From the NCBI RefSeq assembly GCF_006715785.1, contig NZ_VFNX01000002.1, forward strand, positions 434,001 to 498,000: a stretch of DNA of 64,000 nucleotides. Reading direction: 5' to 3'. Shown here piece by piece: positions 32,561 through 42,328 of the stretch (position 1 is its first letter; every line of letters begins with the position of its first letter). The notes under the pieces were generated by a model that was not told where the DNA came from, searched no databases, and saw nothing but the letters and a program-made list of their open reading frames with translations. The DNA is from Streptomyces puniciscabiei (GTDB taxonomy: Bacteria; Actinomycetota; Actinomycetes; Streptomycetales; Streptomycetaceae). A program made the translations under genes and the position numbers.

Positions 32561-32939
32561 CGGGTTCCTTCCGGATCGGACGGCGGTCGGGGCGTGACAC
32601 GTGCCCGGGCGGGCACAATGCCCACCCTCCGGCGGACCGCCGGGTACCCGACAGGGCCGTTCGGGCCACGGCCGCCGGCGAGGTGGCTCCTTCTGGCCGG
32701 CTCGGGGCTGAGGTCCACCCCGTACAGCGTCCGTCCACCGCTGGACACCGGCCCGGTGACCGGCTCCGACCGGGTGTACGAACACCTCCCGGAGGCACGG
32801 GGCCCGAGGCACGCTGGTAGGCGACAGCGCCACCGGGAAGCGGCCGTGCGGCGGCACTGCCGGGTGGCCGACGCCGGCAGCGAATCCACCGCCGGCCCAC
32901 CGGCAGGTGAACCGGTCACCCGTCGGTCCGGCCGGGGTC
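32561..32939. other. Promoter region of the phosphoketolase gene, otherwise empty
   Basis: There is no credible ORF. The stretch holds the palindrome at 32654-32667 and a short GC hairpin (CGGCGGACCGCCG near 32631). The remainder is unannotated. Confidence 0.35.
32654..32667. promoter_or_regulatory. OsdR/DevR-like box upstream of phosphoketolase
   Basis: GGGCCG-TT-CGGGCC matches GGGCCG-NN-CGGCCC with one mismatch in the right arm. It lies 93 bp upstream of the phosphoketolase start. Confidence 0.45.
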
Positions 32940-33330
32940 GTCGGGGGCGCCTGCCGGTGGCGTTGCCGGCCGTGGCCTTCGCCGTAGTCGCGGCCGCCGC
33001 GGTGGTACGCGGCCGGGACGGGCGGCGGCGGCCGGGACGGGCGGCGGCGGCCGGGACGGGCGGCGGCGGCCTGTGCCGGGCTGGGCATTGTCACCGGCGT
33101 ACTCGGCGCGGGCAGCGGCTTGCTCGCGGTCCCGGCGCCGGTCGACGTCCTCGGCCTGCGTATGCGGGCGGCCGTGGGCACCAGCCTGCTCGTCATCACC
33201 GTCAACTCACTGGCCGCCCTGCCGCTGCATGCCGGTACGGCCGACGGCCTGGACCGGTCCGTCGCCGGACCGTTCGCCGGGACGGCGATCCCGGGCGCCC
33301 GGAACGGCAGGCGCCTGCCGGCGACCACGC
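32940..33330 (+). pseudogene. Remnant of a TauE/SafE (TSUP) family anion exporter
   Basis: The plus-strand reading from about 33067 is [20 protein letters not shown], then [22 protein letters not shown] and [15 protein letters not shown] sequence ending at ARNGRRL. This is the first repeat of a TSUP membrane transporter (usually GLLGGGGGILAVPALV.., AVGTSLLVI..). No second repeat and no start codon are found, and similarity stops near 33320. A short hydrophobic piece before it ([14 protein letters not shown]) is separated by a 19-bp tandem repeat. The gene is broken at both ends. Confidence 0.5.
33011..33070. repeat. 19-bp tandem repeat, about three copies
   Basis: The unit GGCCGGGACGGGCGGCGGC repeats with a period of 19 bp (CCGGGACGGG at 33013, 33032 and 33051). 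It lies inside the TauE/SafE remnant. Three units add 57 bp, so the frame is conserved across the array although each single unit shifts it. Confidence 0.85.
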
Positions 33331-33534
33331 GACCGCGACGGCCTACGCGAAACCGGCCCGGTCGAGGGCAACGGGGTGGGCGGCCGGCTGTGTGACGACG
33401 TCTTCGCAGTCCCGCCCCGCCTCGATCATCCGGATCACGCCGGAGACCTGGCCCGGCGAGTACGCCTGCGGCCACCTCCCAGAGGCGCAGGCACCTCGAT
33501 CCTGCGTCCGCAGCTCGTCACCGGAGAGGTCTTC
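33331..33534. other. Intergenic stretch, nothing recognised
   Basis: About 200 bp between the transporter remnant and the small minus-strand ORF. No coding or structural signal is seen. Confidence 0.3.
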
Positions 33535-33723
33535 TCAGCCGAAGAGACTGCGCACCCTGATCGTCTCGACGTGCCGCCACGAGCCGCCGGGCAGCAGCAG
33601 CCAGTCGTTCTTCGACGACGAGCCCCTGCGTACGACGGTGTTCCGCGCCGCCCTGCGCGTCGGCAGCCGCGACCCACAGCTCTCCGCCCGGACCCGCGGC
33701 CGGGTCGACGCGCCCTTGCTCAT
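33535..33723 (-). CDS. Possible small basic protein (62 aa)
   Basis: I do not recognise this ORF. It is listed because its ATG at 33723 is preceded by a strong GGGAGGAG at close spacing. The product would be 62 residues, rich in Arg and Ser in its first half, ending SSKNDWLLLPGGSWRHVETIRVRSLFG-like, with no membrane helix or signal. It is divergent from the universal stress protein gene at 33984. It may be a real small stress-island protein or chance. Confidence 0.4.
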   Translation of the reverse strand: MSKGASTRPRVRAESCGSRLPTRRAARNTVVRRGSSSKNDWLLLPGGSWRHVETIRVRSLFG

Positions 33724-33983
33724 GGCTCCTCCCGCGACTTGAGGCGCGGTACGTCATCCGCGTTCGCCTGCATGAGCACTCACTACATCATCGTCCCTTT
33801 CGCAGAGGATCGCCCTCGGACGGCACGGTCCGGCGAGGCCGAACGGCACTCGAGCAGCGCCGCGCCGGTAGGGCCCGCGGTGCGTCGGACACGTTGCCCT
33901 GGCGAGATGGCGGGACCGCGTGCAGCGTGGAAGCGACGTGGCCGTAACCGACGGGGTGGGAGAGCCGAGAAGAGGTGGGACAC

Positions 33984-41640: not shown

Positions 41641-41772
41641 GCGCCCGCGGTGACCATGACGTGGACCGGCTCGGCCGGAGCCGGGAACAGCGGGTCGACG
41701 ACATCGCGCCGCATCACGTCACTCACCCGGTGCGGGCTTCGGTCCGCGGCGTCCTCCTCACCGGACCGCCGG

Positions 41773-42231
41773 TCACATCGGACCGCCGCTGCCGTAGGGG
41801 GCGTAGAGGTCGAGCAGCCGGACCCGGGAGGCATGCAGCCGTTGAGCGACCACGCGCCCGACCCAGACGGCGACCGCCCGGCCGAACTCGGGATCCGCGG
41901 CGCACAGCGACCGTACGGCACCGGAGTCGAACTCCCAGGCGCGCACCGGGCTCATGGCCGTGGCGCCCAGGTGCCAGAGGTACGGCTCGAAGTGCCAGGA
42001 CCAGCCGACCAGTTCGCCCTGCCCGAGGGTCTCGATGACGGCGGACCGACGGCCCGGCACGTGCAGGTCGAGGGCGACGGTGCCGGTACGCACGATCCAG
42101 AACCGGTCGGCGCGCCGGCCCTCCTCGAACAGGCGGGACCCCGCCTCGAAGGAGACCTCGTGGGCCAGGCACATCAGCCGTTCGCGGTGCACGGGCTCAA
42201 GAGCCGCGGTCACGGTGGTGGTGGAAGTCAT
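41773..42231 (-). CDS. Cyclic-nucleotide-binding-domain protein without DNA-binding domain
   Basis: A 152-residue protein consisting of a CRP-type effector domain only. FEAGSRLFEEGRRADRFWIVRTGTVAL and VIETLGQGELVGWSWHFEP form the beta-roll, followed by a long C helix. The helix-turn-helix of CRP/FNR proteins is absent and the stop is natural. Whether cAMP is bound is uncertain, since the usual G-E-[LIV]-[AG] phosphate-binding cassette reads GELVGWSW. ATG 42231 follows AAGGGAG. It resembles single-domain cNMP-binding proteins found in dormancy regulons. Confidence 0.82.
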   Translation of the reverse strand: MTSTTTVTAALEPVHRERLMCLAHEVSFEAGSRLFEEGRRADRFWIVRTGTVALDLHVPGRRSAVIETLGQGELVGWSWHFEPYLWHLGATAMSPVRAWEFDSGAVRSLCAADPEFGRAVAVWVGRVVAQRLHASRVRLLDLYAPYGSGGPM

Positions 42232-42292
42232 CGCACCGGCTCCCTTCGTGGCTTCTGCTCCCAGCGTGTGCGCGTACGGCCGAGACCGCCAC

Positions 42293-42328
42293 GGGCCACT
42301 CGGTCCGGGCCCGGGGGTCCTTCGGCCC
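42293..42328. promoter_or_regulatory. Two imperfect OsdR/DevR-like boxes upstream of the cNMP-domain gene
   Basis: GGGCCA-CT-CGGTCC (42293-42306) and GGGTCC-TT-CGGCCC (42315-42328) are 22 bp apart and lie 62-97 bp upstream of the start at 42231. Each deviates from GGGCCG-NN-CGGCCC at two positions. Confidence 0.4.

Follow-up and report, generated by a model that had tools for sequence, protein, structure and literature searches.

Clustered GGGCCG-NN-CGGCCC boxes in Streptomyces puniciscabiei as probable operators of an OsdR-type regulon

The DNA analysed here is a stretch of 64,000 nucleotides of Streptomyces puniciscabiei (contig NZ_VFNX01000002.1, positions 434,001 to 498,000, forward strand), hereafter the window. 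Between 30 and 43 kb it carries genes for universal stress proteins (Usp), a response regulator, a sensor kinase and several enzymes, and copies of the palindrome GGGCCG-NN-CGGCCC, here called boxes, lie upstream of most of them (Table 1). Genes were called with our own simple positional-GC caller rather than a standard tool. The regulator and the kinase, referred to by their first coordinates as 34441 and 39919, stand on opposite strands with 4.8 kb between them and do not form an operon.

Table 1. Genes and OsdR-type boxes of the locus. Distances run from the box to the start codon of the gene named; scores are from the published-site matrix described in the text.
Feature	Coordinates	Strand	Basis or position	Score
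Phosphoketolase (XFP)	30176-32560	-		
Usp gene	33984-34427	+		
DevR/OsdR-family NarL-type response regulator, REC and GerE helix-turn-helix	34441-35139	-		
Two-domain universal stress protein	35516-36421	+	Pfam Usp, two stretches	
Two-domain universal stress protein	36455-37312	+	Pfam Usp, two stretches	
Protein downstream of STAS gene	37412-37984	-	no Pfam match at E 0.001	
STAS-domain protein	37984-38379	-	Pfam	
Zinc-dependent alcohol dehydrogenase	38670-39740	+	Pfam ADH_N/ADH_zinc_N	
DosS/DosT/OsdK-type sensor kinase, GAF-GAF-HisKA_3-HATPase	39919-41640	+	Pfam, PDB matches	
Cyclic-nucleotide-binding-domain protein	41773-42231	-	Pfam cNMP_binding	
Box 32654, OsdR-type, AGGGCCGTTCGGGCCA	32653..32668		centre 101 bp before phosphoketolase start	12.5
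Box 33836, additional, GAGGCCGAACGGCACT	33835..33850		141 bp before Usp gene 33984-34427	12.2
Box 35222, perfect, AGGGCCGACCGGCCCC	35221..35236		90 bp before regulator 34441 start	19.0
Box 35419, AGGGCCGGTCGGTCCC	35418..35433		distal member of tandem pair before Usp 35516	13.9
Box 35439, CGGGACCTGCGGCCCT	35438..35453		proximal member of pair, 20 bp from box 35419	8.9
Box 38416, perfect, AGGGCCGTCCGGCCCT	38415..38430		~44 bp before STAS start	19.6
Box 38545, perfect, TGGGCCGGACGGCCCA	38544..38559		118 bp before zinc alcohol dehydrogenase	13.3
Box 42293, degenerate second box, CGGGCCACTCGGTCCG	42292..42307		22 bp from box 42315	2.0
Box 42315, GGGGTCCTTCGGCCCC	42314..42329		91 bp before cNMP-domain gene 41773-42231 (-)	10.6

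The first-pass annotation had listed all of these boxes but 33836, and a check of the sequence found the eight in place. Three are perfect copies of the palindrome (35222, 38416 and 38545), as had been claimed; 32654 and 35419 carry one mismatch each, and 35439, 42293 and 42315 carry two. The palindrome equals the consensus AGGGCCGATCGGCCCT of the OsdR operator of Streptomyces coelicolor, for which Urem et al. (2016, PMC5069765; this and the other papers are cited for the parts considered here) report a regulon as well as gel shifts that included mutated sites, which bears out the assignment of the boxes as OsdR-type operators by sequence type. The boxes were scored with a matrix made from 12 published S. 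coelicolor OsdR sites and nothing else, and the matrix is therefore independent of the window. Seven of the eight score between 8.9 and 19.6 and carry the 16-bp palindrome or a close variant of it; 42293 scores 2.0. Box 35439 shares its GGGACC half-site with published sites such as AGGGACCTTCGGCCCC, and this half-site variant, present in Table 1 of PMC5069765, explains the two-mismatch sites 35439 and 42315. The pair 35419/35439 had been placed on one helix face; its members are 20 bp apart, that is two helical turns, which puts both dimers on the same face.

Strong sites are concentrated in intergenic DNA. The matrix scan covered ~460 kb of the 9.1 Mb genome, namely the window and sampled stretches, and a score of at least 10 was required of a site. 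The 2.7 kb of intergenic DNA in the region from 32 to 43 kb contain seven sites, its coding DNA contains none, and the whole window contains nine intergenic sites in 9.7 kb and three coding sites in 54.3 kb. The two intergenic sites outside the region, 13032 (10.2) and 13944 (13.6), are not near a called start; no gene was called in the DNA that holds them, and the next start is 1.5 and 0.6 kb away, respectively. Elsewhere in the genome, 14 sampled stretches yielded 4 intergenic sites in 52.7 kb (0.076 per kb) and 9 coding sites in 227.3 kb (0.040 per kb). These background figures exclude 80 kb of contig 2 near the window (1 intergenic site in 16.6 kb, 5 coding sites in 63.4 kb) and 34 kb of contig 8 (2 intergenic sites in 8.7 kb, 2 coding sites in 25.3 kb). 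The same score was reached in only 3 of 219 sampled control upstream regions, compared with 212 of the 635 genes in 37 orthologous loci. An equal density of the motif in coding DNA, which the first-pass annotation had named as grounds for giving up the regulon, was thus not seen. Perfect copies number 15 in the genome, and three of them fall within 3.3 kb at the window locus; by our own arithmetic, uniform scatter would produce such a triplet about 2e-4 times per genome. By our gene caller six of the 15 are intergenic, and five of these six sit 90-131 bp upstream of a called gene. One of the five genes encodes a paralogous regulator.

The boxes recur at corresponding places in relatives. A box scoring at least 12 is present in 36 of 37 orthologous regulator promoters, the remaining one having no box, as the counterpart of 35222. 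Nearly all lie at -82 to -95 (two exceptions, at -62 and -114), their most frequent sequence is that of 35222 itself (GGGGCCGGTCGGCCCT when read on the regulator strand), and box 35222 probably serves autoregulation of the regulator gene. The tandem pair 35419/35439 has a counterpart, its boxes separated by 19-24 bp, in 24 of the 29 relatives whose Usp gene is at least 60% identical, a count that requires both boxes to score at least 4 and one at least 7, varies with this rule and includes two loci (L027 and L180) with identical upstream DNA; the member corresponding to 35439 reads GGGGACCTGCGGCCCC or a near variant. Box 38416 is matched in four of four relatives, at -42/-43, and 38545 in eight of nine close relatives, no more than 150 bp from the start. 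Upstream of the cNMP-domain gene, a box of at least 10 is found in seven of nine relatives (one of the nine has only 62 bp upstream), at -88 to -91 in four of the nine, and a second box of at least 5 stands at about -68, the same place as 42293, in four of the nine. The counterpart of 33836 scores 9.2 in three of six relatives, two of which have identical upstream DNA. Among kinase genes of relatives, 9 of 16 have an upstream box of at least 12.

A survey of the genus, made on the best 80 loci of named relatives, reveals a common architecture. It comprises 274 intergenic sites that score at least 12 and lie upstream of a gene, with near copies removed. Box and start codon are separated by a median of 99.5 bp, and 94 of the 274 sites fall in a sharp peak at 80-99 bp. 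In addition, 95 of the 274 sites have a second box of at least 4 whose centre is 19-24 bp from their own, in most cases 20-22 bp. Shuffled flanks give a mean of 5.6 such pairs and at most 14 in 50 shuffles, and other six-base bands hold 5-26 of the 274 sites. The 274 sites share ancestry and are not independent; counted by downstream gene family, pairing occurs at 19-24 bp in 25 of 48 families versus 13 of 48 at 31-36 bp. The paired-box spacing is well supported as a sequence architecture. A Pfam census of 75 of the 277 boxed and 75 of the 422 unboxed genes, read from the 25 commonest families of each set, points to the kinds of gene involved. The boxed set contains Usp (16), CBS (9), zinc alcohol dehydrogenase (5), nitroreductase (4), cNMP-binding (3) and phosphoketolase (2) genes. 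Usp accounts for at most 2 of the unboxed genes, since it falls outside the 25 families, whose lowest count is 2. GerE, found in 16 of the 75 boxed genes, is the regulator itself and is built into the choice of loci. Usp thus stands out among boxed genes; phosphoketolase and the kinase do not.

Regulator 34441 belongs to the DevR/OsdR family. Its best solved match is DevR of Mycobacterium tuberculosis (3c3w, E 4.5e-72), with 119 of 215 aligned positions identical; VraR follows at 6.3e-41. The recognition-helix stretch EKTVKN is conserved and aligned, as counted by hand, at DevR positions 178-183, which include K179, K182 and N183. These three residues have DNA-contact roles in DevR. With its REC and GerE domains, its closest solved relative and these residues, 34441 has the features of a DevR/OsdR response regulator and is the probable reader of the boxes. 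Kinase 39919 has the composition of a DosS/DosT/OsdK sensor kinase, a GAF domain with the expected histidine, a second GAF, HisKA_3 and HATPase. Its first GAF domain best matches mycobacterial DosS/DevS-type GAF domains in the PDB, led by 2vzw (6.3e-44), which we take to be DosT, and followed by DevS (1.2e-39), including 2y8h. Its His140 is aligned with DevS His149, the haem ligand, and the kinase is predicted from its sequence to bind haem and to be of the OsdK type. A genome search with 39919 returned one full-length match, itself, and two matches over the first GAF only (46% and 40%). The same genome holds 26 matches to regulator 34441 at E 1e-30 or better, itself included, and a cNMP-domain protein is encoded among the boxes, so the boxes might be operators of an unrelated regulator, such as a CRP-like cNMP-domain protein or another related response regulator. 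We consider this very unlikely, because Pfam matched no DNA-binding domain in the cNMP protein, the motif is identical to the OsdR site of the literature, and the other regulators are at most 44% identical to 34441, a paralogue on contig 8 (74%) aside.

Our data make it highly likely that the boxes are operators of a DevR/OsdR-family regulator, most likely 34441 and probably also the contig-8 paralogue, which would be phosphorylated by the OsdK-type kinase 39919. The OsdR-type regulon proposed at first sight is supported by the match to the published consensus, the DevR-like regulator and the DevS-type GAF kinase. The sequence analysis itself shows the boxes with their placement, conservation and pairing, and the families to which regulator and kinase belong. 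Binding and phosphotransfer, the signal, any cooperativity and whether the genes are turned on or off are inferred from work on S. coelicolor and mycobacteria. When oxygen falls or nitric oxide (NO) rises, the haem-GAF kinase 39919 would phosphorylate the regulator. A regulator dimer would then bind each GGGCCG-NN-CGGCCC box, which typically stands ~90 bp ahead of the start codon. Where another box, often a weaker one, lies two helical turns off, it may be filled cooperatively. As a result, the Usp genes, the alcohol dehydrogenase, the STAS operon, the cNMP-domain gene and the regulator's own gene would be switched on, and probably the phosphoketolase as well.

Published work already covers the motif, the regulator family and most kinds of gene found here, and the window presents the same type of regulon in another species. 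The OsdK/OsdR system of S. coelicolor (DevS/DevR, SCO0203/SCO0204) uses the same operator, GGGACC-half variants included, at similar positions, often -50 to -160 in Table 1 of PMC5069765. The gene kinds overlap in Usp, zinc alcohol dehydrogenase, a Crp-like protein and autoregulation, and induction by hypoxia or NO is discussed there (PMC5069765). Outside the window, an enoyl-CoA hydratase gene has GGGACCTTCGGCCC 215 bp upstream, at C1:933905, and a GGGACCTTCGGCCC-type box precedes the enoyl-CoA hydratase gene SCO5979 of S. coelicolor, a likeness of box and gene kind (PMC5069765). Unlike the S. coelicolor system, the regulator and kinase of the window are separated on opposite strands, and a second OsdR-type regulator is encoded elsewhere in the genome. 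The boxed phosphoketolase and STAS genes of the window are missing from Table 1 of PMC5069765.

The DosS/DosT-DosR system of M. tuberculosis is alike in its DevR-like regulator and DevS-type GAF kinase. The DosR box has a 6-2-6 palindrome core like the boxes here; its half-site is GGGACT, whereas that of the boxes here is GGGCCG. CBS-domain genes are among the targets of the DosR regulon. Usp targets are common to that regulon and this one (PMC5069765). M. tuberculosis DevR binds closely packed sites cooperatively (PMC3029386), and two DosR motif matches listed for this species are spaced by 21 bp (665,861.5 and 665,882.5; PMC2812949). The parts of PMC3029386 and PMC2812949 considered here give no general rule for the spacing of DevR sites, which may still be published, and the word 'tandem' does not occur in those of PMC5069765.

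The second regulator, at G000:C8:99521-100168 (L118:16431-17114), is 74% identical to 34441, and the next best is 43% identical. A perfect box (score 20.7) stands 105 bp upstream of it at C8:100281, with a further box of 14.2 at L118:16058; the regulator's neighbours are a family 43 glycosidase and a solute-binding protein. The genome search found no match to the window kinase on contig 8. In a 100-row regulator tree, which lacks the sequence of S. coelicolor SCO0204 itself, one clade of 76 rows (100/99) holds 34441 together with every regulator labelled as convergent with a kinase no more than 200 bp away, 24 in all. S. coelicolor is absent from the best 80 loci of named relatives, and its name does not appear in the best 120 rows of a protein search, many of them with no name or a shortened one. 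The contig-8 regulator falls in a 17-row clade (99/96) with all nine regulators labelled as forming an operon of response regulator and kinase. Two loci of this operon clade, L172 with Usp and PPDK neighbours and L174 with PPDK, match the published neighbourhood of S. coelicolor osdR, and the operon clade is therefore probably OsdR proper. Regulator 34441 would belong to its sister clade, in contrast to S. coelicolor OsdR, and it lacks the operon arrangement with its kinase that is expected of a strict orthologue of OsdR (SCO0204). Given this placement, 34441 and the contig-8 regulator are both candidate binders of the boxes.

The same observations allow another arrangement, in which the boxes are real OsdR-type operators read mainly by the contig-8 regulator, with a narrower or different role for 34441. 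The clade of the contig-8 regulator, the neighbours of L172, its own perfect box and the grouping of the window kinase described below favour such a division of roles. The helix stretches of 34441 and the contig-8 regulator (AEKTVKNHISR / SEKTVKNHISR) differ only in the first letter, which is compatible with the contig-8 regulator as reader; the shared helix also predicts the same specificity for both proteins, which counts against this arrangement. In addition, the 34441 gene stands among the boxed genes, and its box is kept in nearly all orthologues. We therefore regard a main reader on contig 8 as rather unlikely and favour 34441 as the principal reader, with the paralogue as a probable second.

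The kinase tree is at odds with the regulator tree. Among its 70 rows, 24 are labelled convergent, a label set by locus. All ten operon-clade kinases share a group of 25 rows (100/100) with the window kinase, and the labelled convergent kinases are set apart from this group by a 100/100 branch. Two of the 24 convergent-labelled rows, L095_10715 and L074_1702, are nearer to the window kinase than the other 22; L074_1702 is a second kinase of its locus despite its label. These trees suggest that two related systems may have exchanged partners, so that the window pairs the regulator of one system with the kinase of the other and the operon-clade regulator is left alone. In one relative (G143), a window-type regulator, STAS, alcohol dehydrogenase and kinase stand together at L177, and an operon-clade regulator at L178 has no kinase match in 18 kb; a second kinase match lies somewhere in that genome. 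There is a precedent for one kinase with two regulators, as proposed here, since OsdK of S. coelicolor phosphorylates both OsdR and the orphan SCO3818 in vitro (PMC9739842, PMC5069765). Among 150 sampled genomes of the genus, 129 contain at least one regulator match and 78 at least two (E 1e-75 or better). We tentatively propose, at somewhat less than even chances, that one operator code is common to two or more DevR-type regulators in many Streptomyces, that their partners have been exchanged, that one haem kinase feeds two regulators competing for paired boxes, and that the phasing of 21 +/- 1 bp sets cooperativity.

Several results weigh against the favoured explanation. The regulator and kinase lack an operon arrangement and give conflicting trees. 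Directly upstream of the kinase there is no box, the best score in 39741-39918 being -1.9, and box 42293 scores at background level. The phosphoketolase box 32654 has a counterpart of at least 9 in the XFP upstream regions of only 3 of 23 relatives, and one of at least 10 in 1 of 18; it is weakly supported, the least so among the strong-scoring boxes. In the census, phosphoketolase is no commoner with a box (2 of 75 genes) than without one (2-3 of 75), and the unboxed set has more GAF kinases, 6 of 75 versus 2 GAF proteins among the 75 boxed genes. Nine of the 15 perfect boxes fall inside called genes. Furthermore, counts that tolerate mismatches show no excess: with up to two mismatches the window has 46 matches versus 47.9 expected from shuffles, and with up to one mismatch the genome (9.15 Mb) has 685 versus 878 for a backwards motif control. 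Because mismatch counting gave no enrichment, it was replaced by the published-site matrix, and enrichment is confined to strong, intergenic sites. Such counts are what would be expected if the palindromes were chance products of a genome with 71% G+C. This explanation is extremely improbable, as the density and conservation tests already contradict it: the intergenic excess of strong sites was obtained with an independent matrix, perfect copies cluster, and position and spacing are conserved. The boxes are real and not a product of chance, and operators of a DevR/OsdR-family regulator remain the favoured explanation for them.

With these results the OsdR regulon, described in S. coelicolor, gains a counterpart in a further Streptomyces species. 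The placement at ~90 bp and the 20-22 bp spacing of pairs, drawn from the 80 loci of relatives, provide a guide for regulon calls. The mismatch of kinase and regulator opens cross-talk between dormancy-type systems to direct test, and, as 78 of the 150 genus genomes have at least two regulator matches, single deletions may miss phenotypes. Two points reach further than a new instance of this regulon type: the paired-box spacing and the proposed exchange of partners, the latter derived from trees without the S. coelicolor sequence.

Some further features of the locus and its relatives were recorded. The Usp gene 36455-37312, directly upstream of which the matrix scan found no site of at least 7, is probably in the same transcript as 35516-36421. 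The product of 37412-37984 had been labelled Rv1733c-like; with no Pfam match at E 0.001 the label is unconfirmed. A terminator or hairpin reading of the boxes was rejected, since the 2-bp centre is too small for a loop and the place upstream of start codons is conserved. A box-like GAGGCCGGTCGGCCCC at 59969 (15.6), in the end of a (-) gene ~100 bp before the next gene, is probably due to chance. By eye, an imperfect direct repeat of ~40 bp (accgctcggcctNgtgacggccgggg...) occupies 38450-38525, between the STAS and alcohol dehydrogenase boxes. The interval from phosphoketolase to Usp has a single called gene, a short one (62 aa), and 32980-33760 holds three near-identical gggacgggcggcggcggcc units in what, judged by eye, is apparently decayed coding DNA. 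In several relatives (seen by eye, uncounted) the 150 bp upstream of XFP resemble the last part of a Usp gene, which makes cotranscription of XFP possible there. Outside the window, a CBS-domain gene is preceded at 114 bp by a perfect box GGGGCCGGACGGCCCC at C2:510980 (L122:12979); a luciferase-like monooxygenase gene lies beyond, and the box probably belongs to the same regulon. Flavohaemoglobin-like genes (globin, FAD and NAD domains) adjoin operon-clade regulators at L168:11128-12306 and L178:12100-13305; they have OsdR-type boxes upstream, with scores of 18 and 15, and are a possible NO-detoxification target.

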